The position numbers were made by a program, and so were the translations under genes. Shown here one piece after another: positions 1-45,440 of a DNA stretch of 46,855 bases. The notes below the pieces were generated by a model. It worked only from the letters and a program-made list of their open reading frames with translations. It was not told where the DNA came from and ran no database searches. The stretch is from the NCBI GenBank assembly GCA_000827205.1, contig KN832559.1, positions 1,750,476 to 1,797,330 of the forward strand, in the 5' to 3' direction. Each line of letters opens with the position of its first letter. Position 1 is the first letter of the stretch. The stretch comes from Plicaturopsis crispa FD-325 SS-3. Lineage: Eukaryota; Basidiomycota; Agaricomycetes; Amylocorticiales; Amylocorticiaceae.

Positions 1-87
1 GCGCGCGGTGGTGAGTCGAGTGACTGAGGATAGTCTGTGGTGTACGAGGGTCCCTAAGCGTCCCCGGGGCTCATAACCTGTCAGAAA

Positions 88-271
88 CTATAAGTGCGAA
101 GCGGGTCGCGTCTCAGTCGCACTGTAAGAATAGTGGAATCGACTAAGTATTATGTACCTATAAGTGCGAAGCGGGTCGCGTCTAGTACATGTGTAAGTAT
201 CAAATGAAGGTGCAGTAGGTATAACACAACATACCTCAGTCGCACTGTAAGAATAGTGGAATCGACTGAGG
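88..271 (-). repeat. Dispersed repeat, left copy: duplicated two-part hairpin unit
   Basis: Read on the minus strand, part B (235-265, 31 nt) follows a pyrimidine-rich tract ending in CAG. It is followed by a GT...AG segment (182-234, 53 bp) and then part A (158-181, 24 nt). After a 15-bp spacer (143-157, also GT...AG) the same B (112-142) and A (88-111) recur directly fused. The two B copies are identical, as are the two A copies. B folds into a hairpin with outer arms CTCAGTCG/CGACTGAG and inner arms CACT/AGTG. A diverged copy with the same architecture lies at 44889-45064 in the opposite orientation. This is directly visible in the sequence; the function is unknown. Confidence 0.85.
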
Positions 272-1026
272 AAAAGAAAGGAGAAACAATGTCTGAACGT
301 GTCCATGAAAAAGCGTGGGAATAAAGTCCAAAGCCCCTAACATCCCAGGAATAAGTCGCAGGAATAATGATGTTTGGGGGACCGAGTAGAAAGGCTAGCT
401 CGGTGCCCCAAAGGTCATCGGTCATGTGACATGTGGCTGAAACGTCCGTGGGTTCAATTCCCCCTGCAGGAAAACGTTTTCCCAAGTGGACACCGGATGT
501 GCGCGGGCACTCCTATTCACGTCCAGTTTTGACACGTGGTCTATTGTTTGCGGATAGTGTCTGCAGATCCATCTGTTTGATGTGTGGATACACTGTCAGG
601 TCTGGGAAATTGGCAGTGGCTGAAGCCACTGCCTTGTTGATGGATGTTTCATTGGGCATCTATATAGCCGTTCTCAGGACATTTCCCACGGCATCTTTTA
701 CCTTTATACTTATCACACGACACTTGTACGCTACATTTGACTCCCTATACATTGGGTCCGGTGTATTGCAGGCTCCTCAGATAAGTCGAAGGTATGCAGA
801 TCTTACACTTTTTTACACCTCCATCAAAGTACTAGGGACTACAATGGTAGTACCGAGCACTTCTACTCCCCACTGTCCCACTTAAAAACTGTGCGTCCAT
901 ACCGAGTGCTGTTCCAGATATACATGCCGATTGAAATTGTACATTAAACCATAGGAACATTAAACCATAGGACAAGTACACATAGACGGATACATGCATA
1001 TCATATGTGTCTTTTTTGCTGGTCAA
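272..1026. other. Gene-poor stretch, part of the dispersed element
   Basis: No credible gene is seen. The first part continues the left repeat (weak similarity with the mirror region near 44850, including a shared TTCATGGAC on the element's sense strand). A perfect 10-bp inverted repeat with a 2-nt loop occurs at 612-633 (GGCAGTGGCT/AGCCACTGCC). An open frame at 433-885 resembles no family I know and has no convincing start context. Sequence after 886 is probably 3' flank of the DAHP synthase gene. Confidence 0.5.
374..413. repeat. Imperfect 14-bp inverted repeat (hairpin)
   Basis: Arms 374-387 and 400-413 pair with one mismatch (TTTGGGGGACCGAG against CTCGGTGCCCCAAA), with a 12-nt loop. It lies on the inner side of the left dispersed repeat, followed by a near-palindrome GTCATGTGAC at 423-431. 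The right-hand copy of the repeat has a GC-rich hairpin and a similar near-palindrome in the equivalent place, so both probably belong to the same element. Confidence 0.6.
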
Positions 1027-3791: not shown

Positions 3792-5019
3792 ATGCCTGAA
3801 GAACGCGGCCTACGGCTCCTCGCCCTCGGTGTGTACCATCATTATCTACTACCAAAGCCCCGTGGATTGACGTCGATTTGAACAGATGGAGGGGGCATAC
3901 GTGGTTTATCGGAACTATGTATACTTTCCAACATCATGTGGAGAATTAAAACGGAGAGGAAGCTGGAAACAGTGCCCCGCCCCTGCGAATATTTTGACAT
4001 GATTGCCGGAACGAGCACCGGGGGGTATGCGATCGGTCTTACTGTATTGTTCGACGCACAAGCTTATGAGCATATTGTTTTTCCATTAGCCTTATTGCAC
4101 TTATGGTGGGACGGCTACGATTGTCCGTAGACGAAGCTATCGCGCATTACACACCTCTGGCTGAGAACGTGTTTTCCGATATCAAGCCGTTCAGCACCGT
4201 AAGGAACGGCGGCAAGTTCAAGGCAACCAAATTGGAAGAGGCCATCCAGAACATCGTCAAGAAGCACGCGACAGGCGCGAATGCTGGGGAATTGGCGTTA
4301 CTTGATCCTGATCCAGGCTATCCAGAGTGCAAAACGTATGTGCATCCAATAACTGATCGCACCGTAACTACAACGCTTTGATATATGACTATCGGTATAG
4401 TTTTGTCTGCGCGATGCCAGCTGCCAACATGAACGCCAGAAAGGCCGTGCATTTCCGCACATACGCGGTACCGCACGAGGCGCCCTCCACATGCGCCATC
4501 TGGGAGGCAGGGCGCGCCACCTCCGCCGCGCCTACGTTTTTCAAGCCAATCTCTGTAGCGACGCCTACGCTAGAGACCTTCATCGATGGTGGGCTTGGGT
4601 GCAACAACCCCACACAGGAGCTACTCGACGAGGCCAAGCTAGTGTTTCCCGGGCGGCGCATTGCATGCGTCGTGAGTATTGGCACGGGGCATGCGAAGAC
4701 GATCGCGATCCCGCCGCCCGGGCACTTCAGCCTGCAGCAGCTGCTCCCGGCCGACGCCATCAAGGCGATGATCGCCATTGCGACGGACTGCGAGACCGTC
4801 GCTGAAGAAATGGCGAAGCGCTTTGGTGACACGCCGGGGGTGTATTGGCGGTTCAATGTCGAGCAGGGGATGCAGAAAATTACACTGGCGGAGTGGGAGA
4901 AGATGAGCGAGGTCGCGACGCATACGAACCAATACATAAGGACGGAGAAGGTAAGCAGGCAGCTGACCGAGGCAGTACATGCCCTCGTTAATGTGGTAGA
5001 GGAACCTATTTTGCGATAA
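3792..5019 (+). CDS. Patatin-like phospholipase 1
   Basis: Predicted acyl hydrolase acting on phospho- or neutral lipids through a Ser-Asp dyad. Exons 3792-3828, 3886-4024, 4090-4335, 4401-5019 give 346 aa. Motifs: oxyanion loop DGGGIRG (its Asp codon split by intron 1), nucleophile elbow GTSTGG with Ser56, and IDGGLGCNN with Asp203 completing the dyad. The downstream region includes a GRLRLSV block and the ATDCE and VYWRFNVEQG blocks. There is no signal peptide, so it is probably cytosolic. The start was chosen because the short first exon MPEERGLRLLAL runs straight into DGGG, as in the paralogue at 5122-6370. The substrate cannot be predicted. Confidence 0.9.
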
Positions 5020-5121
5020 GCAGGAAAAGATGTACAATTTAATGCGGTCACCGCATCCTGGTGAACCATCTGCACTAGTTCAAGTGTAATATTTTGAACA
5101 ATTATAATTTTTGAGTGACGG

Positions 5122-6370
5122 CTAACGCAAATTTGTCTCCGTAAGCTCCATCCTCTGTGCGTGGGTCTCCGTGCCCTGCTCACCGATAATAACCGCGACA
5201 GCATTCCCCAGCTCCTGCGCCACTTCATACTTCTTCATGTGGGCCGTAGTGTGACTATGCACGTCCGACATCTTGTTGAATTGACCAGCCTTGATATCCT
5301 GCAAGCCTTGCTCGACGTTGAACCGGAAGTACACATTCGGGATGTCGGCGTACTCCTTGGCCATCCTTTCAGCAGTGGCCTCGCAATCGGTGGCAATGTC
5401 GACCATCGCGTTAATAACCCGAGTTGGGACCACAGTTTGGAGGAAAGTAGGCATTGAAATGCTGATCGTGTTGATTTTGCCTGCGCCGATACTGATGATG
5501 CAGGCGTGGCGACGATTAGGGAAGAGATTATGGGCTTCCTCGATGACTTGGGCGGTAGGGTTGTTACGGCCGAGGCCGCCGTCGATGTATGGAACAGGAA
5601 TGGAGGCCCCAATCTTGATGCGCTTGAAAAAGGTTGGCGCGGCGGACGTGGCGCGCGCGGCTTTCCAGATCGGGCAATCAGTATACACCTCCTGGCTGGA
5701 TTCGTACGTGCGGAGGATTGCTGGTATGCTGGCGTTCATGTTCTGTGCACGCATAGCACAGACGAAGCTGCGCGATGGCGGTGGTCAATGCATGCATCGT
5801 TCGATGTATCGCATTGCTCACGTTTTACAGACACGGCCCCCTTCTGCTCCACGGTCCAGCATCGGTGCATTGGCGTCGCCTGTATGCTGTTGTATGACGT
5901 CCTGGAGCGACTTTTCTAGTTTACTCGCTTTGTAGAGACCGTCGCCACCAGGCTTCCAGGTCTTCGCATCGGAAAAGACCTTAGTGGCTAGATTTTCCCA
6001 GAGATCAATAGTATCCTTGATGGACAATCGCAGCCGCCCGAGCATTAAAGCTGTAATTCTTGTGTGAGCGGTCGACGATTTAGTTACGTGGGGACTAAGA
6101 AGTAGCGAAACAGGGACACACCCGCCCGTGCTCGTGCCCCCGATGAGATCGAAATAATCGCAAGGACGCGGGACCTCCGGCAAATCTTCCTCTACCATGA
6201 TTCGATGCATGATGGTCTCGAGTATGTAGAGCTGTGACAGCCCTCTTATTCCGCCACCGTCTATTGTTGCAGCGCACGTCAAAAAGAGTGCGTTAAATGC
6301 AACTGAGGGAGTGACTAGGCCCACCGAGAGACAGTAGCCTTACTCCGTCGTCAGATGACGCTTGAGACAT
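5122..6370 (-). CDS. Patatin-like phospholipase 2 (paralogue, tail to tail)
   Basis: Same family and same structure as the gene at 3792. Exons 6370-6325, 6260-6122, 6058-5822, 5767-5122 give 355 aa. DGGGIRG (Asp split by intron 1), GTSTGG with Ser59 and IDGGLGRNN with Asp203 are all present, so the dyad is intact. All three introns interrupt the same codons as in the neighbour, exon 2 has the same length (139 nt), and the summed length through exon 3 is the same (422 nt). The two genes converge with 102 bp between stop codons. This points to an old inverted duplication. The C-terminus carries a unique tail of roughly ten residues. Confidence 0.9.
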
Positions 6371-25026: not shown

Positions 25027-28000
25027 CGGATCGCACCCCACCAGTCTATATCCTCTATATCTCAATTATTCTCAACTCAACTCCCCATTTTAACTGCATA
25101 TATCAATTCTACATACTCAAAAACATAACTACGTGATATTGTCCGGCTACATTCGCACCAAAAACCACTGAAAACGGATGTCAGTTGCGTTTCCCGTTAC
25201 CCCAAGCAAACCGCGCCCGTATCAACCACGCTCTACACCTACTCGTAAATCATCCCCGCCGCCGGCACACGTATTCTCGAAAGCACCATCGGGTCCCATC
25301 TTACCAGCCGGAAACGCCATCCTCGTCAGAAACGTCTTCGAGAATGACGGGTCAATCGGATTTCCGGTCGCAATCGTCGAGCGCGCAATAAAGTCGATTA
25401 TAAACATGTCGGACCATAACGATCTGGCGGAGATTCCGGTGACGGCAGTGGATACGACAGGGACACACCCGGGGCAGGGTTCTACCTCGTGTGTCGTTCA
25501 GTTGTCGAATGCGTTAACAAGTCTGGAGGAAATAGGATCGGAGCCGCGCATAGACCTTACGGCCCAGTGGATTAAAGCGCTTCGGGAGTTCAACAAGGAA
25601 TGGGAGGTCGTATGGATACCGCAAAAGGTCGGGAAAGACAAACGGATGTGGGTACGGTTCCCGTTTGGGTCGCCGTTGGTAGAGCCGACGAGGGAAGAGG
25701 TGGACAAGGTCACGGAGTGGTGCAAGCGACAGCCAGGATGCCGAGGGGTATGCGGACAATTCCCCACCAAAGGAGCAGCCGTCGTGGTCTTCGCCTCTAC
25801 GGCAGACGTCGACGCCGTTCTCGCTACTCGCAGAATCACCAACACCCCCTTCTCGCCCACCCCGGTATATGTCTCCGGCTTCCGTCAACTTGAAATTCAC
25901 AACGCATTCGAGCTCGTCGTGACGGGAATCGCCGAACATCCAGAGGGACTCCCCGATACACTCACGGAGTACTTCTACACGACGTACAAAGACGAGGAGG
26001 GTAACACAACCTTCGGCGACTATCGACTACCTCAGGAGGAGCGGGATGCGTACGTCTTCTGGATGAAGGACTGGAAGTCGACGAAGAGGGTCATCGGGGA
26101 TTTCAAACAGTTCTACGAGACGTTCGCGGGCACTAGAGGCATCAATCGCCCTAGATTGGTGTGGGAGGTCAACAGCGGCGCTGCATGGAGGGAAAAGACA
26201 ATGGAGGCAGTGGAACGCGGGGCAAACGCAGTCGTCGATACGGTCAACCAGCTCAGTCGGCGAATGGAGGCGTTGGAGCGAACGACGAGGGAGCATCATG
26301 AAGCGACTCACCACCGTCTGGAACAGTTTGGCCAGAGCATGGACGTGCTGACCAACAACGTCTACTTCCTCGGCGCGCAGGTCCAGAATCAGGGCCTTGC
26401 GCTCATGGCCTCGCGCGACGAGAAAGCTATCACCGACCAACTCCACCAGCTTCAGAGCCTTCGCATCACGGAGAGGCACAACTACAGCATGGCGACGGAT
26501 GAGGAGGAGAGGCAGGAGATAAAGAAGCGCATGCGGGACATAGATGACGAGATGAAGGCACTGCAGGCTCAGGCGCGAGAGGCAGGTCAAAAGGTACTGT
26601 CCCTTGTAGCACCGGCCGCAGGATCAATCGCTCCGCCATCTACGCCCGAAGGTCTACCTCCTCCCGGACTACCGGCACCGTCAAGACGGAGAGACCGCTC
26701 CCCTCCGTCGACAAACACAGAGCCGGATCACTCCACTGCGACCAGAGACCCCCCGCCACACCTCCAACAGTCCCCGGCCAAGCGTGTCCGCAGGGAAGTG
26801 ACAGCGGAGAGCTCGGTTAATGAGGTGGAAAAGGTGCTCGGTCGGCAAAAGCAGTCGCAGGTTGAGGCGACGACACAGGAACCAATGGTGCTCGATGACG
26901 ATGCCTCGGGCACGGCGGCCTCAACACGCGCACCGACACCGGCGGCCTCACGCGGCACCTTATCAGGGACTGCTCGTCCCCGAAGGGAGAGCCAGCGAGC
27001 AAAGACTGCGCCCTCAAATGACCAGGTGAGCATCGTGTATACAGAATCAGCATTATCCCCCCCGGCGGCTCATGCCCGCGCCCTAGCCTCGAGGAAGCCA
27101 GAGTCGTGCTTAGGACAAGACACTTGTAGTCGACGGCTATGGAGGGTGAAAGACGGGCGGAGAGGCACGGGGTACGGACTGAGCTGTCGGGGAGTATTTC
27201 ACTTTTCTTCCTTCCCCGCGTTTAGATATTTTACGGACCCGCCGAGACTACGACGTCACCGACCACCACGTACACTGAATACATCGTCTTTCTTGATACT
27301 ACGGCTGGTACTACTCAGCGTCCTAGTCCTCTCCTTTGCATCGTCGGCAGCGGCAGCTCCATCGCGCTCGTCGCAATTGTCAATCTATGCGCTCAACGCA
27401 AACGGCCTAGTCAACCCGGGAAAAATTGCTCATGTTACCAGAGCTATCACAACACGCAGGCCACATGCGTTCGTCATCTCGGAAACAAAAACCTCGTCGA
27501 GGGTAGCGCCGAAGCTGCAGCTAGACAACGAATACAACCTTTTCGAAGAGCAAGGACAGAAGACTGGCGCGTCGGGCCCGGACAAATGGGGTGTTATCGT
27601 AGGAATCCGACGTGATATTCAGGTCTCCCAACGGCTTACAGTAACGGATGGCGATCTTCGGGGCCGAATGGTTGCTGTCGACATGATTCTCCCCACGTCA
27701 AATGGCACAGGCTTCCAACATCGGTTTTTCGGCCTCTACGCCCCGTGGAATCCTGGTGGCGATGGCGCAAACGGCAGGTTCTGGGCTAAAGTGACGGACA
27801 TGTGCAAAGGCTCCCCACACGCATGGACACTGGCTGGTGACCTCAATGCAACAGTATCGGCGCTCGAGCGCAATAGCGGCGGCCAGGATGCACAACGACA
27901 ATTTGTCGATTTTCTGCGCAACACGGACGGGCGTGACTTGTGGTCGGATAACATTGACCGCTCCCGAAACTACGACTGGACGTCAAGAGAACGTGGATCT

Positions 28001-30153
28001 GGCACTGGAGGAAATATTATAGACCGCGTTGTTACCTCTCGTACTCAATGCGTCGACAGCGAGATAGGCGCAGCCGACCGGAGCACAGACTATGTGCCGA
28101 TGACGGACCACCGGGCAGTGGTCGCACGCATACACCTTGCCCCACCCGCGAGAATGCGAATACGAGACGCGCGGGTACGCTTTAGCGAGACGAAGACATG
28201 GCAGCCTCAACCGCGAGTCAAATACCCCGCAAAATCCGAAAGACACAAATTTCAGACGTTCCGAGACGCGGTGGACAAGCGGATAGAGGCAGAACACATT
28301 CGTGATGTGCCTGTCATTGACGATGAGTCCTTCACTGCTCGCTATCGCGCGCTGACCGCTATCCTTTGCGAATCCGCAGAGTCAATCTTTGGACGAGCAC
28401 GGCGTAGACTGTCCGCTCCAGGCTTTGTCACGTCTCCCAGAATTCAGCGACTACAAGCGGAGATTAAGCACCTCGGAGGTGCGCTTCGACTGTGTGCTGA
28501 TTCTGGGACAGCATACGTGTCGTACGGCTCCCGGGAGGCATTTCATAGGTTCACGGCCAAGTTCCTTCGAGAGAACCATGAAGGTACCACTTTCCGCGAG
28601 TTCCTACTCATGGAACGTCGGAAGCTGTACAAGGAACTGTACGACGAACGAATGGCTACCGAATATGCAAAGGCAAAAGATAGAGACAGTCGTCAGATAT
28701 CCGCAGCCCTGCTAGGAGGTTCCACGCGTCGTCTCATGTCGTCTGCAGAGTACGTGGCCATGCCTACGGCGCTCAACTGCCTGGACGACGAGGACGAACT
28801 AGTCACGGACCCTGAAGGGGTAAAAGAGACTACTCGTCAATATTTCTCGTCACTGTACCGACGAAAGCCACCGCCAACTGTGCCTAAACCATGGCTAACC
28901 ACCCCATCCATCTTAGCCGTGCGGGACCGGATTCGAGCAGACCCTTTTACGTGGCCACGGCCTACCTCAATCGGGGATTACCGTGCAATGCTGCGAAAGG
29001 GGAATGCGCGCCCTTCCCCGGGCCCAGATGGATGGGAGAAATGGTGCGTCAAATCACTATCCGATGAGGCCTTGGCCTTAGTGCTCGATTTGCACAACTA
29101 CGAGGTCATGAATGCGACATTCCCTGCCGATATTAAGGACACATGGCTGTTTGCATTTCACAAACGAGGAATCCGCACAGACCTGCGTAACTGGCGTGGA
29201 TGTATGATCTCGAATTTCCTTGCGAACTCCCCCCTAACGTGGTTGAACTACCTCATTACCCCATATACGGCCCGTCTAGGAATCATCCCGGAAACCCAAG
29301 TAGCGACCCAACAGGGTGTCCAGACTCGAGACCTCAATAGCTTCCTCGCTGGGGTTAAATGCTGGGCTAAGCGCAATCACCAGACCGTGTACGCTCTGAA
29401 GCGCGACCAAATGAAGGGATTCGACTATCTTGAGCCGGAGGGTTTCTACGACGCGGTGCGAGCATATGGCCTCCCATCATCCATCATTGACCTTGATCGC
29501 GCAGCACAGTCAGACGTCTCGTGCTATATACGCACAGCCTTCGGGCTCACCGAGCGTATTGTGATTAATGGAGTCACAAAGCAGGGTGCACCGGGATCCC
29601 CGTACAAATGCGCTCTCACGACAAGCATGGGCCACCGCTATCTAAATGACTTGGCGGCACAAGAGGCGGGTTCGCTCGTTATCGCCTCAACGTCTCATCT
29701 AAAAGGAGATCCGCACCTGCCCGATGACCAGCTAACGCTACGCGTAACAATGACAGAGGCAACAGATGACTCTTATCTGTTTGCAAGAACACTATCCACT
29801 TTACAGCGGTTCTGTCTCGAGATGGAACGGTTCCAATACGCATACGGATGGCTGACTCAATGGCTCAAAACAAATGCATATGTTTTGAATGCACCAGCGG
29901 GTTCCCCGGAAAAGGTGTCTATGCCATCTATCACGCTCGAGGACGGAGTTCACCCGTGGACTGTAACAGACCACGAAGTTCCCCTTATAGCGGAGGAACT
30001 CGAATTCTTGAGGGCGAAGGTCGATGACCCGGACGCCAGATTCCAGGAGATCCGGGACTATATTGACTCATTCACGTTTCCCAAATTCACCATCCGTTCT
30101 CCGCTTACCTTGATTCGGAAGATCATAGCGCAATCGATGATACCCCGCTGCAG

Positions 30154-30158
30154 GGCGC
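30154..30158. repeat. LTR element target-site duplication, left copy
   Basis: GGCGC immediately before the TG of the left LTR, repeated at 31858-31862 after the CA of the right LTR. Confidence 0.85.
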
Positions 30159-30356
30159 TGTTGGAATATGCGGCGGTATTGGGTATGAGACTCGCCACCG
30201 TTGCCACTTGATCCTAACACATACAAACAATGTCCGTAGAGTTGCGTTCGTCTTTGTACTTACATCCTCTATCCTCTACTATGATGTTCACTCGTTCTCT
30301 GTGATATCTGGGTCCTCAGGCTTTCCGTGCATCAGTGTCTCTGGGTTAATCCTACA
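30159..30356 (+). repeat. Left LTR (198 bp)
   Basis: TG...CA ends; it differs from the right LTR by one base that I can see (T in place of C in the motif ACAA[T/C]GTCCG). Near-identity indicates a recent insertion. Confidence 0.9.
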
Positions 30357-30404
30357 GGTTATTGAGCCCCGCTGCTTCTGCTTGCTGTCTGTGTCATTCT
30401 CTGG

Positions 30405-30510
30405 GTCTTATCTGCCACATCAGTGCCCATCTACGCCCATCTGTCGCCCATCAGTGTCCATCTGAGCTGATCAGACGCCCTTATCTGCGTCCTATCAGTG
30501 TCGGTGTGAG
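30405..30510. repeat. Short degenerate repeats running into the gap
   Basis: Repeated words such as ATCAGTG and CCCATCTG occur several times before the N run. Tandem sequence of this kind probably explains the assembly break. Confidence 0.55.
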
Positions 30511-31351
30511 NNNNNNNNNNNNNNNNNNNNNNNNNNNNNNNNNNNNNNNNNNNNNNNNNNNNNNNNNNNNNNNNNNNNNNNNNNNNNNNNNNNNNNNNNN
30601 NNNNNNNNNNNNNNNNNNNNNNNNNNNNNNNNNNNNNNNNNNNNNNNNNNNNNNNNNNNNNNNNNNNNNNNNNNNNNNNNNNNNNNNNNNNNNNNNNNNN
30701 NNNNNNNNNNNNNNNNNNNNNNNNNNNNNNNNNNNNNNNNNNNNNNNNNNNNNNNNNNNNNNNNNNNNNNNNNNNNNNNNNNNNNNNNNNNNNNNNNNNN
30801 NNNNNNNNNNNNNNNNNNNNNNNNNNNNNNNNNNNNNNNNNNNNNNNNNNNNNNNNNNNNNNNNNNNNNNNNNNNNNNNNNNNNNNNNNNNNNNNNNNNN
30901 NNNNNNNNNNNNNNNNNNNNNNNNNNNNNNNNNNNNNNNNNNNNNNNNNNNNNNNNNNNNNNNNNNNNNNNNNNNNNNNNNNNNNNNNNNNNNNNNNNNN
31001 NNNNNNNNNNNNNNNNNNNNNNNNNNNNNNNNNNNNNNNNNNNNNNNNNNNNNNNNNNNNNNNNNNNNNNNNNNNNNNNNNNNNNNNNNNNNNNNNNNNN
31101 NNNNNNNNNNNNNNNNNNNNNNNNNNNNNNNNNNNNNNNNNNNNNNNNNNNNNNNNNNNNNNNNNNNNNNNNNNNNNNNNNNNNNNNNNNNNNNNNNNNN
31201 NNNNNNNNNNNNNNNNNNNNNNNNNNNNNNNNNNNNNNNNNNNNNNNNNNNNNNNNNNNNNNNNNNNNNNNNNNNNNNNNNNNNNNNNNNNNNNNNNNNN
31301 NNNNNNNNNNNNNNNNNNNNNNNNNNNNNNNNNNNNNNNNNNNNNNNNNNN
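30511..31351. other. Assembly gap (841 N)
   Basis: A run of N inside the LTR element. Open frames that appear to cross it are artefacts. Confidence 1.
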
Positions 31352-31659
31352 CAAGTGTACGCCCGTTGCCGCTTTGCTTTGCATCGCCCGCCCATGGCCA
31401 CTTTGCTTCGCTCTTCGTAAGCCGTTGTCAAGTCAGCGCATTCTTTTCGATTCGCACTGTGGAATCGTCGTTTCCGGAGTCGCAGGAGTTTTGTCTTTTG
31501 ATCTTTCCGTCAGGGGAGTGATTCATTTTTGTTGTTTTATTTGTGGACGAAGCATTCTTTTTCTCAGTTTATCTTTCTGCTTCTCCACATTACCGTTCTT
31601 TGTTTCTGGGGGTGTCTTATTCTGGGGGTGCTTCAGAGGGTGTCGAGCCTCAGGGGGTG

Positions 31660-31857
31660 TGTTGGAATATGCGGCGGTATTGGGTATGAGACTCGCCACC
31701 GTTGCCACTTGATCCTAACACATACAAACAACGTCCGTAGAGTTGCGTTCGTCTTTGTACTTACATCCTCTATCCTCTACTATGATGTTCACTCGTTCTC
31801 TGTGATATCTGGGTCCTCAGGCTTTCCGTGCATCAGTGTCTCTGGGTTAATCCTACA
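31660..31857 (+). repeat. Right LTR (198 bp)
   Basis: Second copy of the LTR, ending ...CTACA, followed by the duplicated GGCGC and then the resumed LINE coding frame. Confidence 0.9.
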
Positions 31858-34001
31858 GGCGCTGTTGTCGATACAACCCATAAAGCAGGCTGACGCAGCG
31901 GCGCTCGACAGAAAGATAGCATCGAAAGTGCATGAGCTGACCGGATTTCCGTTCTCTCCGAACTCAGATGTGATGTGCTTACCGCTTGCAGCTCACGGAC
32001 TGGGCTTCCCCTCGATCTCAAGGATCAATAATGGCATCGTTATTGAGGGTCTTTGGAGAGACCTTAACCACCACATCCCTGCTTACCGAACAATGGCGAG
32101 GATATCTCTCGCAGACTGGACATGCGCGATCAACGGGTGTATACACCCACTAGATGGCCCCGGCTTGAGCGCTAATTTCTCGCGCTATTATCGCAAAATC
32201 CCTGCGACCTGGATTATAGCACAATCCGCCATGTCGTCTGCATTGCCACGCCTTGCACTGCGTCTGACGGACAACAGTCATGTGCTGAGCGGGAACATGG
32301 CATTATCGCACACACTGAATGTGGCCGCAAAACATGGCGTACCGATTCCAAATGGCAACGCGCTGCGGTCTCTGCGCGCCAAAGGGGTCCAAAGTCTAAA
32401 GGACATGGGAAACTGGACACTGCATCGAGGCGCAGCATGCGAAGCGATGTTTATAACTGACGATACCAAGTTCCAGACACAAAGCCCCACGGCAGCAGCC
32501 AGGTCTGCATGGACAAGCACGTCGAACACCCTTAAACGGGTTTCACTGCAATGGCTAAATTACGGGCCACCTGACCTGCTCTTAACACGACAGGATAGGA
32601 TGGAGAAGGCGGAAACATACATTAAATCGCTCGAAGCAACACTGAAGCTAAGGCCATCAACATTGGTTCCCGATGGAGGAAGGATATGGGCGTCGGATGG
32701 GTCAATGGTACCAGCGACAGCGAGCGCAGATGAGGAGAAGTCGGTCGTAGCGGCGACGACGGGCCCCAAAACGCTGGTGACCAAGATCGCAGGCCGCAGC
32801 GCGTCGATCCTGCAGGGCGAACTGATGGGGCAGATCATGACGTTAGCCCTCATCGATTCCACGACTCACCAAAACCCCATCCCTGAACTCTTCACCGATC
32901 ACCTCAACTCGGTCCGCCTCCTTCAAGACAGTCAGTCGAACGTTGGCCTGCAAGACTTCAAAATGCGGCATATGAACGGTCGGTCATATTACCGATGGAT
33001 CATGGACCTGGCCAGGAGAAAACGGGTCAATATTCAGTACACGCCCGGGCACTCGAATGAGATCTCGTTGCCCGCGCGACTCAACGGCGAGGCAGACCAC
33101 TACGCATCATCATCCCAAAAGCACGTCACCAAAATACCAGTCGCGCCCGTCCCGAGCTTCTTCATGGACGATTACACATTCTACCGTGAGGGCTACGGAT
33201 GGATAGAGTCTAACATCCGAACTCACATGGAGCGAGCACATGAGAAGTCTACCGCGAGGAAGCTCGCGATCGGCCACAGACTACGGATGGCATCGTGGCT
33301 ATACGAGCCGAGGCCACCTCCATCTTTCCCTTACACGCGAGCGGCGTCGGCGTACACGAGCGTCGTTCAACTATACGCAAGGTCGGGGCAGCTACCGTTA
33401 GCAGGAGGGTTGCGGGAAAAAGGGAAGATCACGGACGAGCAATGTAGGCTGGGTTGCGAGGCGGTGGAGGATCCGCATCACATCTTTGTCGATTGCCCAC
33501 GGTACGAGAATTGGAGGGTAGAGGCGAAGGAAGCACTGTGTCGCTGGACGGAGGAGGCAACCACTGAAGCGGGCGTGGAGGAGGCCGCCCGAAAAGGCCT
33601 CCTCACAGCAGCTAAGTACATGTTCTCAGATTCGAGTGAAATATGGCCGCTACAGAATTCGGTGTATTACCTAGGTCATCTCCCAAAACTCGAACGGTAC
33701 ATGCCGGTAACCGAGAACTTAGGGAAAATGGCCAGAGAACGACTACTACATAAGATCGCAGCCTACTGGCACCTCACCGCTGTCAGACTCGCGGCGCGTA
33801 TATACGGCGATTTTGCGAAGGAAATGGCGAGAAGATATGCGACGGGGGGAAGGAAAATGGGAAAGGGGAATAACAGGAGGAGATAATGGGATTGAACGGG
33901 AGGAGAGGATAAAGCACGTTAATCTGGGTCCGTCGAGGCGAATAGTCCTGAGTCTTGTAGGACAAAGGCGGATATCAAATTGTAAACATTGTAAACAAAG
34001 G

Positions 34002-44187: not shown

Positions 44188-44697
44188 TCAAAGACGGTTC
44201 TGCCGGTACCAGGCCGTCGGGGCCTGTCGACGTATTCGCCATGCACACGCCCGGAGGCCGCTGTTGAAGGTCACGCCGAATACGATGTTGCTGACGAGGT
44301 GGTGTGCGTTGTGAGCCACAGTGCCGAAAGCAGATTGATATTGCAGTGGGTTGGCGTAGGTTCGGAACAAGCCCCTGCTCCGCGCCGGCGGGCCGGCGAA
44401 CCTAAGATGCTCTGTACGAAGGGGGTTTCTGAGCGCGAACACCTCCACCAAATGAGGTTTGTTTCCTTAGCTTTCTCATTTGAACATGTCCTTAGCATGC
44501 ATATAAAACATGTCAAAGTGTCTGTAATAAGAAATACGAAATTCCCATCTTTCTGCACCAAGTTTTCCAACGGGCTCGTTGCCCTGCTAAACTAACATTG
44601 TGCAACCATCCGTTGACCGTTTTTCTTGATTCTTCGAGCTCTAAGCCTTGAGACTGATGACAGAATATAACGGTGCCCGCTTGCACCCTCTGTCCAA

Positions 44698-44714
44698 CGC
44701 GCCTCGGTGGCGCG
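44698..44714. repeat. GC hairpin, 6-bp arms
   Basis: CGCGCC (44698-44703) and GGCGCG (44709-44714) with a 5-nt loop. Just downstream ATCTGCC/GGCAGAT forms a 7-bp inverted repeat (about 44725-44741), followed by TCATGTGAC. All lie on the inner side of the right dispersed repeat. Confidence 0.55.
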
Positions 44715-44767
44715 CGCAAAGACCATCTGCCATAGGCAGATCATGTGACCAACTTTCTGGTTTGGTT

Positions 44768-44794
44768 TTTGCCGCGCCACAGTGGCGCGGCAAA
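44768..44794. repeat. Perfect 13-bp inverted repeat with 1-nt centre
   Basis: Arms TTTGCCGCGCCAC (44768-44780) and its exact complement (44782-44794). It occupies the same relative place in the right repeat as the hairpin at 374-413 in the left repeat, but with unrelated arm sequence. Confidence 0.8.
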
Positions 44795-44888
44795 TTTGAG
44801 ACCAGAACACACAGGGGCTATTTTCTATACTGGGTTGATTGGTCAGCGTTCATGGACTTGTAATTTGCTGTCTGTTATTTTCCTTTTC

Positions 44889-45064
44889 CTCAGTCGTTCC
44901 ACATCGTACTGTGCGGCTGAGGTATGTTACATTCATTCATACATTACTTTGGCTGTTTACTTATGCTTGTACTAGACGCGACGTACTCGCTTTCATAGGT
45001 ATAATTCACTTAGTCGTTCCACATCGTACTGTGCGGCTGAGACGCGACGTACTCGCTTTCATAG
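44889..45064 (+). repeat. Dispersed repeat, right copy: duplicated two-part hairpin unit
   Basis: Mirror of the left-end repeat. After a pyrimidine tract ending CCTCAG come B' (44894-44921, 28 nt), a GT...AG segment (44922-44975, 54 bp), A' (44976-44998, 23 nt), a 15-bp GT...AG spacer (44999-45013), then B' again (45014-45041) fused directly to A' (45042-45064). Both B' copies and both A' copies are identical to each other. Compared with the left element the units differ at roughly a quarter to a third of positions, yet order, insert size and the 15-bp spacer are kept. Hairpin B' pairs CTCAGTCG with CGGCTGAG and CACA with TGTG. Confidence 0.85.
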
Positions 45065-45440
45065 ATTCTGTCAACTGATTTATTGGATATACTGTATAGA
45101 TTTGACCTCAAGTTCGTCACGTGTCACGCAGGGTCCCAAACTGAACCTATTTCGTGTGACTGTCCCACCAAAACTTGGCCCGCAAACTGGATTTGTGACC
45201 AAATGGCTGGATTCAGACGTGACGCAGGCCCTTTGAATCCGGGGACTCGCGGCGTGAGCAAAGGGCGCAGCAAGATATCAGGAGACGCTGGGCCCCTTGA
45301 ACCTATACCACTACCACCGTACTCGTTCGCTCCGCTACACTGTACCGTAACCCTCGTTTAGTTCCCTTTTCCTCTTCATTCCTCAGCATAGAACATTGCA
45401 TTTCATTCCTTCCTCACTTTCTCCTTTCCCTCTCGTCACC

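Follow-up and report, generated by a model that had tools for sequence, protein, structure and literature searches.

A long terminal repeat (LTR) of a Ty1/copia retrotransposon in the basidiomycete Plicaturopsis crispa FD-325 SS-3 carries the same unit twice, once split by an intron-like insert and once joined without it. The duplication is not a chance occurrence, as the same structure recurs in 41 parsed LTRs of the genome. Comparison of the sequences indicates concerted evolution within the LTR, with the copies of the unit repeatedly rewritten from one another. We consider it probable that the unit is a split, duplicated R region, and that a strong-stop cDNA made from the spliced first copy lands on the intronless second copy, an event that would preserve the insert and rewrite the second copy. 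The analysis started from one stretch of 46,855 nucleotides (contig KN832559.1), here called the window.

A split and a fused unit in a Ty1/copia LTR

Window positions 79–534 are the 5' LTR of a Ty1/copia retrotransposon on the minus strand, as established by the sharp ends, target-site duplications (TSDs), an interior encoding RVT_2, and the adjoining putative primer-binding-site (PBS) sequence (Table 1). Alignment of copies places the sharp LTR ends at 79 and 534, and the window LTR pairs with L011, located about 18 kb away, via the duplication CCACG. Other copies extend beyond the position corresponding to 534 into the interior, and the interior next to the 3' LTR of L011 encodes RVT_2 (E = 4.6e-54). 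TSDs of 5 bp were found in several copies (L012, L014, L034, L036, L037, and the solo LTR at 44658–45073), while not every copy displays one (e.g., L039). The sequence GGTTATGAGCCCC, which we take to be complementary to the anticodon arm of the initiator tRNA, adjoins the LTR in the window and in other copies. A search of the genome with four sequence patterns for the initiator tRNA gene gave no match.

Read along the minus strand, the LTR has the layout U3-CCTC-B1-[i, 53 bp]-A1-[s, 13 bp]-B2A2-u5-PBS. When the insert i is left out, B1 plus A1 is identical to B2A2 across 57 nt (33 nt of B and 24 nt of A). The initial annotation had described a split unit and a fused unit at 88–265; both repeats are exact at these positions, and its coordinates are correct overall, with the exception that B measures 33 nt and not 31. 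The shared unit is consequently 57 rather than 55 nt long, and the gap between A1 and B2, given there as 15 bp, is reduced to 13 nt (157–145). A second LTR of the window, a solo copy from a different subfamily, has the same architecture.

Table 1. Features of the two LTRs in the window; parts of each LTR are listed in the order of its own strand
Feature	Position	Strand	Remarks
5-bp target-site duplication	535..539	.	Minus strand CCACG; matches flank of 3' LTR in L011 (CCACGG)
LTR, 456 bp, 5' LTR of Ty1/copia element	79..534	-	TGTCA...TGACA ends common to other copies; PBS sequence on left (66–78)
U3 end, CCTC	268..271	-	Close of pyrimidine tract before predicted transcription start
B1, putative first exon	235..267	-	First base (267, A) is the predicted transcription start
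Insert i, putative spliceosomal-type intron, 53 nt	182..234	-	GTATGT...CTTAC(-16)...TACTAG; host actin introns compared
A1, 24 nt	158..181	-	TAG at end, then GTACA
Spacer s, GTACATAATACTT	145..157	-	Last base (145) is the hypervariable position
B2	112..144	-	Same sequence as B1
A2	88..111	-	Same as A1, joined directly to B2
u5, 3' end of LTR, TTTCTGACA	79..87	-	
PBS sequence, GGTTATGAGCCCC	66..78	-	28 places in genome
Second LTR, solo	44658..45073	+	Same architecture, different subfamily; TSD ACTGA (44653–44657 / 45074–45078)
B1 of second LTR	44892..44921	+	
Insert i of second LTR, 54 nt	44922..44975	+	GTATGT...CTTAT(-16)...TACTAG
A1 of second LTR	44976..44998	+	
Spacer s of second LTR	44999..45011	+	
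B2A2 of second LTR	45012..45064	+	Equals own B1+A1

Global folds of positions 60–300 are mildly more stable than those of shuffled sequences (z = -1.99 for the plus strand and -1.51 for the minus strand). An Rfam scan of the window gave no family reaching its gathering score, and weak matches in 1–1200 to a tmRNA T-arm fragment and a Sulfolobus sRNA were rejected as far under the gathering scores. Among other features of the window, exon matches to a DAHP synthase gene (PF00793) occupy 1305–2824 on the minus strand, the nearest about 0.8 kb from the LTR, and a perfect 16-bp tandem duplication, ACATTAAACCATAGGA, is present at 941–972. By eye, two adjacent convergent frames at 4378–5754 have the look of patatin-like phospholipases, and frames at 25178–33886 on the plus strand, interrupted by a masked stretch at 30511–31351, resemble those of a non-LTR retrotransposon, with endonuclease- and reverse transcriptase-like parts.

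Recurrence of the structure and similarity of its two copies

The window region 60–300 has at least 40 matches in the 33.2-Mb genome. The initial annotation had asked whether intron-containing and intronless units occur elsewhere and always in the same order; each of the 41 parsed long LTRs has the split unit ahead of the fused one, a count to be read with the fact that the parser sought the second unit downstream of the donor. The fetched loci contain 45 donor-type sites (two redundant sets of loci were skipped). Four of these sites did not enter the table of 41 LTRs: L040 and L045 are broken off by N, L054 has a different sequence downstream of i, and L058 lacks s-BA. L018 and L041, whose A2 is cut by N, were excluded from the counts of 39 given below; L026 and L079, also interrupted by N, lack a donor that can be read. 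Some locus names are duplicates: L009 and L038 are the two window copies, L001–L008 equal later loci, and L069 is part of L036. A site was accepted by the parser only with AG ahead of A1 and at most 6 mismatches in B2. A further rule, CTC ahead of B1, led to no rejections; recounted without it, CCTC precedes B1 in 44 of 45 donor-bearing copies and TCTC in the remaining one. Several LTR pairs belong to one element each, so the 39 LTRs represent fewer than 39 insertions, all from one genome in which the interiors are partly masked.

Complete data are available for 39 long LTRs; in 33 of them B1 equals B2 and A1 equals A2, and they do so as 10 different B/A versions. Differences between copies inside the same LTR amount to 10 of 2103 sites in the 39 long LTRs, while the distance between the 10 versions ranges from 0.018 to 0.368 (up to 37%). 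The copies within an LTR are thus alike though the versions have diverged between subfamilies, which is what argues for repeated rewriting. The subfamily comprising L049–L057 and L081, of which L054 is interrupted inside i, has an A unrelated to that of the other subfamilies, still exactly duplicated after i and joined to B. Substitutions that close relatives lack are found in both copies in L053 (in B), L022 (in A), and the pair L021/L023 (first base of B); L014, L017, L024, L025, L044, and L081 have substitutions in a single copy only.

Four of the 36 sites matching a fused-junction pattern (L059–L062) were rejected, as they have a different sequence and lack the architecture. At 16 further PBS places (L063–L078, with L068 largely masked), the 330 bases before the PBS contain no exact direct repeat of at least 14 nt at a spacing of 15–259 nt, except in L075. 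In this LTR, which lies before the same PBS sequence, a 23-nt repeat recurs 50 nt apart, with a 27-nt spacer that starts with GT after CAG; L074 and L078 resemble L075 and have no such repeat. L010 (near 4825) and L015 (near 4893), probably the two LTRs of one element, carry an additional 14-nt copy of the end of A, located between A2 and u5.

The insert as a putative intron and the proposed replication cycle

Insert i is 53–55 nt long in 39 of 39 LTRs, and every one of these inserts has a branch-site motif CTYAY at a distance of exactly 16 nt to the 3' end, including those of the subfamily in which the neighbouring TGTAC motif is shifted. Conservation of i between subfamilies is concentrated at both ends. 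The constancy of GTAYGTT and of the AG before A1 is not independent evidence, as these were used for finding or parsing the sites, whereas the length and the CTYAY at -16 played no part in that. For comparison, three introns of the host actin gene measure 48, 52, and 60 nt and have CTNAY at -15, -16, and -18. The candidates were chosen by a scan demanding CTNAY, and these three were confirmed by the reading frame, which they keep over 316 residues with 94.6% identity and no gaps; an overlapping 61-nt alternative was rejected because it breaks the actin frame. With its GT...AG ends, branch site, and host-like length, i has the properties of a spliceosomal intron, in agreement with the intron-like insert of the initial annotation. 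The RNA-mediated, "spliced" copy offered there as one option gains support as well. We infer from these sequence features that i is spliced from the 5' leader of the RNA.

In the cycle that we propose, transcription would start at the first base of B1 (the A following CCTC), the spliceosome would remove i from the capped 5' leader, and minus-strand strong-stop cDNA would be synthesised on the spliced leader. Such a cDNA would find no contiguous pairing with B1-i-A1 of the unspliced 3' LTR and would pair with B2A2 over 57 nt. First-strand transfer would land on B2A2 of the 3' LTR, and the new LTR would retain i while its B2A2 is rewritten from spliced B1+A1. Copying would have to run from B1+A1 to B2A2, because the reverse direction would lose i.

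The acceptor may have left a trace in the base before B2. In a count covering 25 LTRs of four subfamilies, with one LTR dropped from each of three pairs, this base shows 5 minimal changes in 4 subfamily cells compared with 17 changes in 692 other cells, and the base before B1 shows 0 changes in 4 subfamily cells. The excess has a Poisson P of about 7e-8 before allowing for the choice of the site, which was picked after inspection of the data, and the base is invariant in one of the four subfamilies. Flanking repeats pair the LTRs of one element in window/L011, L020/L025, and L032/L042 (5 bp) and in L021/L023 (4 bp); the two LTRs of each of these pairs agree in the last base of s, as do those of the neighbouring pairs L010/L015 and L050/L051, although L050 and L051 differ elsewhere in s. 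In other elements, reverse transcriptase adds untemplated bases on reaching the RNA 5' end, and a hypervariable base before B2 is the trace expected where a cDNA ending at the RNA 5' end lands. These data suggest that B2, and not B1, is the acceptor, and that the A of AGTCG is the RNA 5' end.

In such a cycle the segment s-B2A2 would also have to leave the leader, since splicing of i alone would add a unit per cycle or lose i. Neither loss of the intron only nor an extra s-BA unit is seen among the parsed LTRs, and the genome-wide pattern list, from which the L034 and L049 subfamilies are absent, contains no closely spaced fused junctions. The segment could perhaps be removed as a second intron (TAG/GTACA ... 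TAG/u5), whose donor would stay base-paired to the end of i as long as i is present; alternatively, reverse transcriptase could jump between the identical units. After the TAG of A, s starts with GTACA in 31, GTATA in 7, and GTACG in 1 of the 39 LTRs. The end of i can pair with this start; the variable pair is A-U, U-A, or C-G, except in two subfamilies, where it is mismatched. Removal of i raises the predicted mean unpaired probability of the second donor in 9 of 9 representatives, in comparison with both U3-extended and capped unspliced RNA. With the real i, its accessibility is below the mean for mononucleotide-shuffled i in all nine, but no more than 1 of 40 shuffles was as low in only three of them; among the others, L027 had 16/40, L016 had 8/40, and L017 had 6/40 shuffles as low. 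The signals of this candidate intron are poor: the donor is weak (GTACA or GTATA), the only branch-like motif is CTGAG at -24 to -29, and CTNAY is absent at a host-like distance.

As for the first donor, CCTC at the end of U3 in the 3' LTR could pair with GAGG at the first splice site and might keep the 3' copy unspliced; the pairing would be missing in RNA starting at A. It is possible in 11 of 11 representatives (with TCTC in L017), in one of them with a G-U pair. In predicted folds of short nascent RNA, the presence of U3 closes donor positions -3 to +1 in 9 of 9 representatives and its absence leaves them partly open, while over positions -3 to +6 the capped RNA is more open in only 6 of 9. 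In whole-leader folds the first donor is less open in capped than in U3-extended RNA in 7 of 9. The modelling is therefore divided, with no support for masking by CCTC in whole-leader folds and partial support in short nascent RNA. On balance we lean slightly towards the broader proposition that the element evades intron loss by combining a leader intron with a stored intronless landing copy, which would be rewritten in each cycle, both donors being masked by RNA pairing in the 3' copy.

Alternative explanations and relation to known systems

An unlikely alternative, although the one that fares best, invokes two transcription starts. RNA starting at B2 would be reverse transcribed unspliced, RNA starting at B1 would be spliced and serve mainly as mRNA, and occasional copying of the latter would homogenise the units. 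This scenario accounts for the hypervariable base before B2 and for an unspliced 3' copy without masking, and the BARE element is described as having two promoters with distinct RNA pools, one of them partly spliced (PMC3735527). However, the pyrimidine-rich tract precedes B1 and not B2, and spliced B1-A1 joined to u5 would still be required for homogenisation.

Appreciably less plausible is that gene conversion or unequal exchange at the DNA level keeps the repeats alike and that i is a spacer with intron-like ends. Five LTRs (L031, L033, L046, L047, and L048) have only the fused unit (U3-BA-u5), and one decayed LTR, L058, has only the split unit, with U3-B-i-A followed directly by decayed u5 and PBS; both forms could have arisen by exchange between the repeats. 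In the aligned parts, the U3 of each of the five short LTRs shares 97–100% identity with that of the best-matching long LTRs in the respective subfamily, which points to repeated losses. TSDs flank L031 and L046, L047 adjoins the interior, and L048 adjoins the PBS (the start of L033 was not located). L033 combines U3 and B/A of the L021–L024 subfamily with u5 of the window's subfamily and looks recombinant. None of the five has a changed base at the junction of U3 and B, hence there is no sign in them of cDNA landing on B1, a point that counts against the cycle proposed above. As a general explanation, exchange would demand separate, repeated conversion of tracts of 30–33 and 19–24 bp without moving i, and it leaves unexplained both the intron signals at fixed spacing and the absence of multi-unit arrays among the 41 parsed LTRs.

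There is very little to recommend the idea that no copying takes place and that the likeness of B1 to B2 and of A1 to A2 is maintained by selection for the same RNA structures or protein-binding sites. B can form a hairpin, whose coding-strand changes between subfamilies run from UA to UG and from AU to GU, but the hairpin loops match between B1 and B2 as fully as the stems. Moreover, the L022 change present in both copies of A weakens, by eye, a possible A hairpin, and the unrelated A of one subfamily is nevertheless duplicated exactly. A single tandem duplication and a subsequent precise loss or gain of the intron, as first suggested for this locus, is just as hard to sustain as the sole explanation. 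The order and exactness of the repeats at 88–267 agree with that suggestion, whereas its one-off character is not supported, as copying recurs across subfamilies: there are 10 B/A versions, each doubled in its own LTRs, and the copies from an old lone event would have drifted apart. Finally, the split direct repeats of tyrosine-recombinase retroelements (DIRS/Ngaro) were another option of the initial annotation. Split and fused repeats come in a superficially similar order there, but they stand at the ends of elements that lack LTRs and TSDs. This option can be dismissed with near certainty, as the whole structure lies inside a single copia-element LTR with TG..CA ends, 5-bp TSDs, and an adjacent PBS sequence, and a related copy borders a copia-type reverse transcriptase.

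The element shares its LTR ends, TSD, position of the PBS sequence, and RVT_2 with ordinary Ty1/copia elements. In those elements R is normally contiguous and single, whereas here it is present once split by the putative intron and once joined. In foamy viruses the genomic RNA remains unspliced, and the splice acceptors are not located within the LTR. The foamy virus donor is located near the RNA start inside the LTR, and bases -13 to -1, found only in the 3' LTR RNA, alter the fold around it (PMC3694450). This provides a precedent for a 5'/3' difference at an LTR splice donor, while the passages of PMC3694450 on which this comparison draws do not mention any copy of the RNA 5' end stored in pre-spliced form. 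BARE, a Ty1/copia element of barley, is likewise copia-type with spliced and packaged RNA classes, but its intron, situated towards the end of gag, is not part of the LTR, and only unspliced RNA is argued to be replicated (PMC3735527). Penelope-like elements can also retain introns through retrotransposition; they differ in having a GIY-YIG endonuclease and pseudo-LTRs, and the retention is discussed, in the portions of PMC3846280 drawn on here, via antisense or unspliced templates and not via a stored spliced copy.

No prior report of an LTR-borne intron with a spliced twin was recognised in the open-licence literature searched. In textbooks, introns are lost when spliced RNA is reverse transcribed. 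If the proposed cycle of splicing and landing on the stored copy is true, an element that replicates via spliced RNA and still retains its intron would be a natural exception, and one whose mechanism is readable. If B2A2 is rewritten only upon splicing and reverse transcription, it would locate both the start of transcription and the site of strand transfer to single-base precision, and would also constitute a genomic record of splicing that can be read without RNA data.
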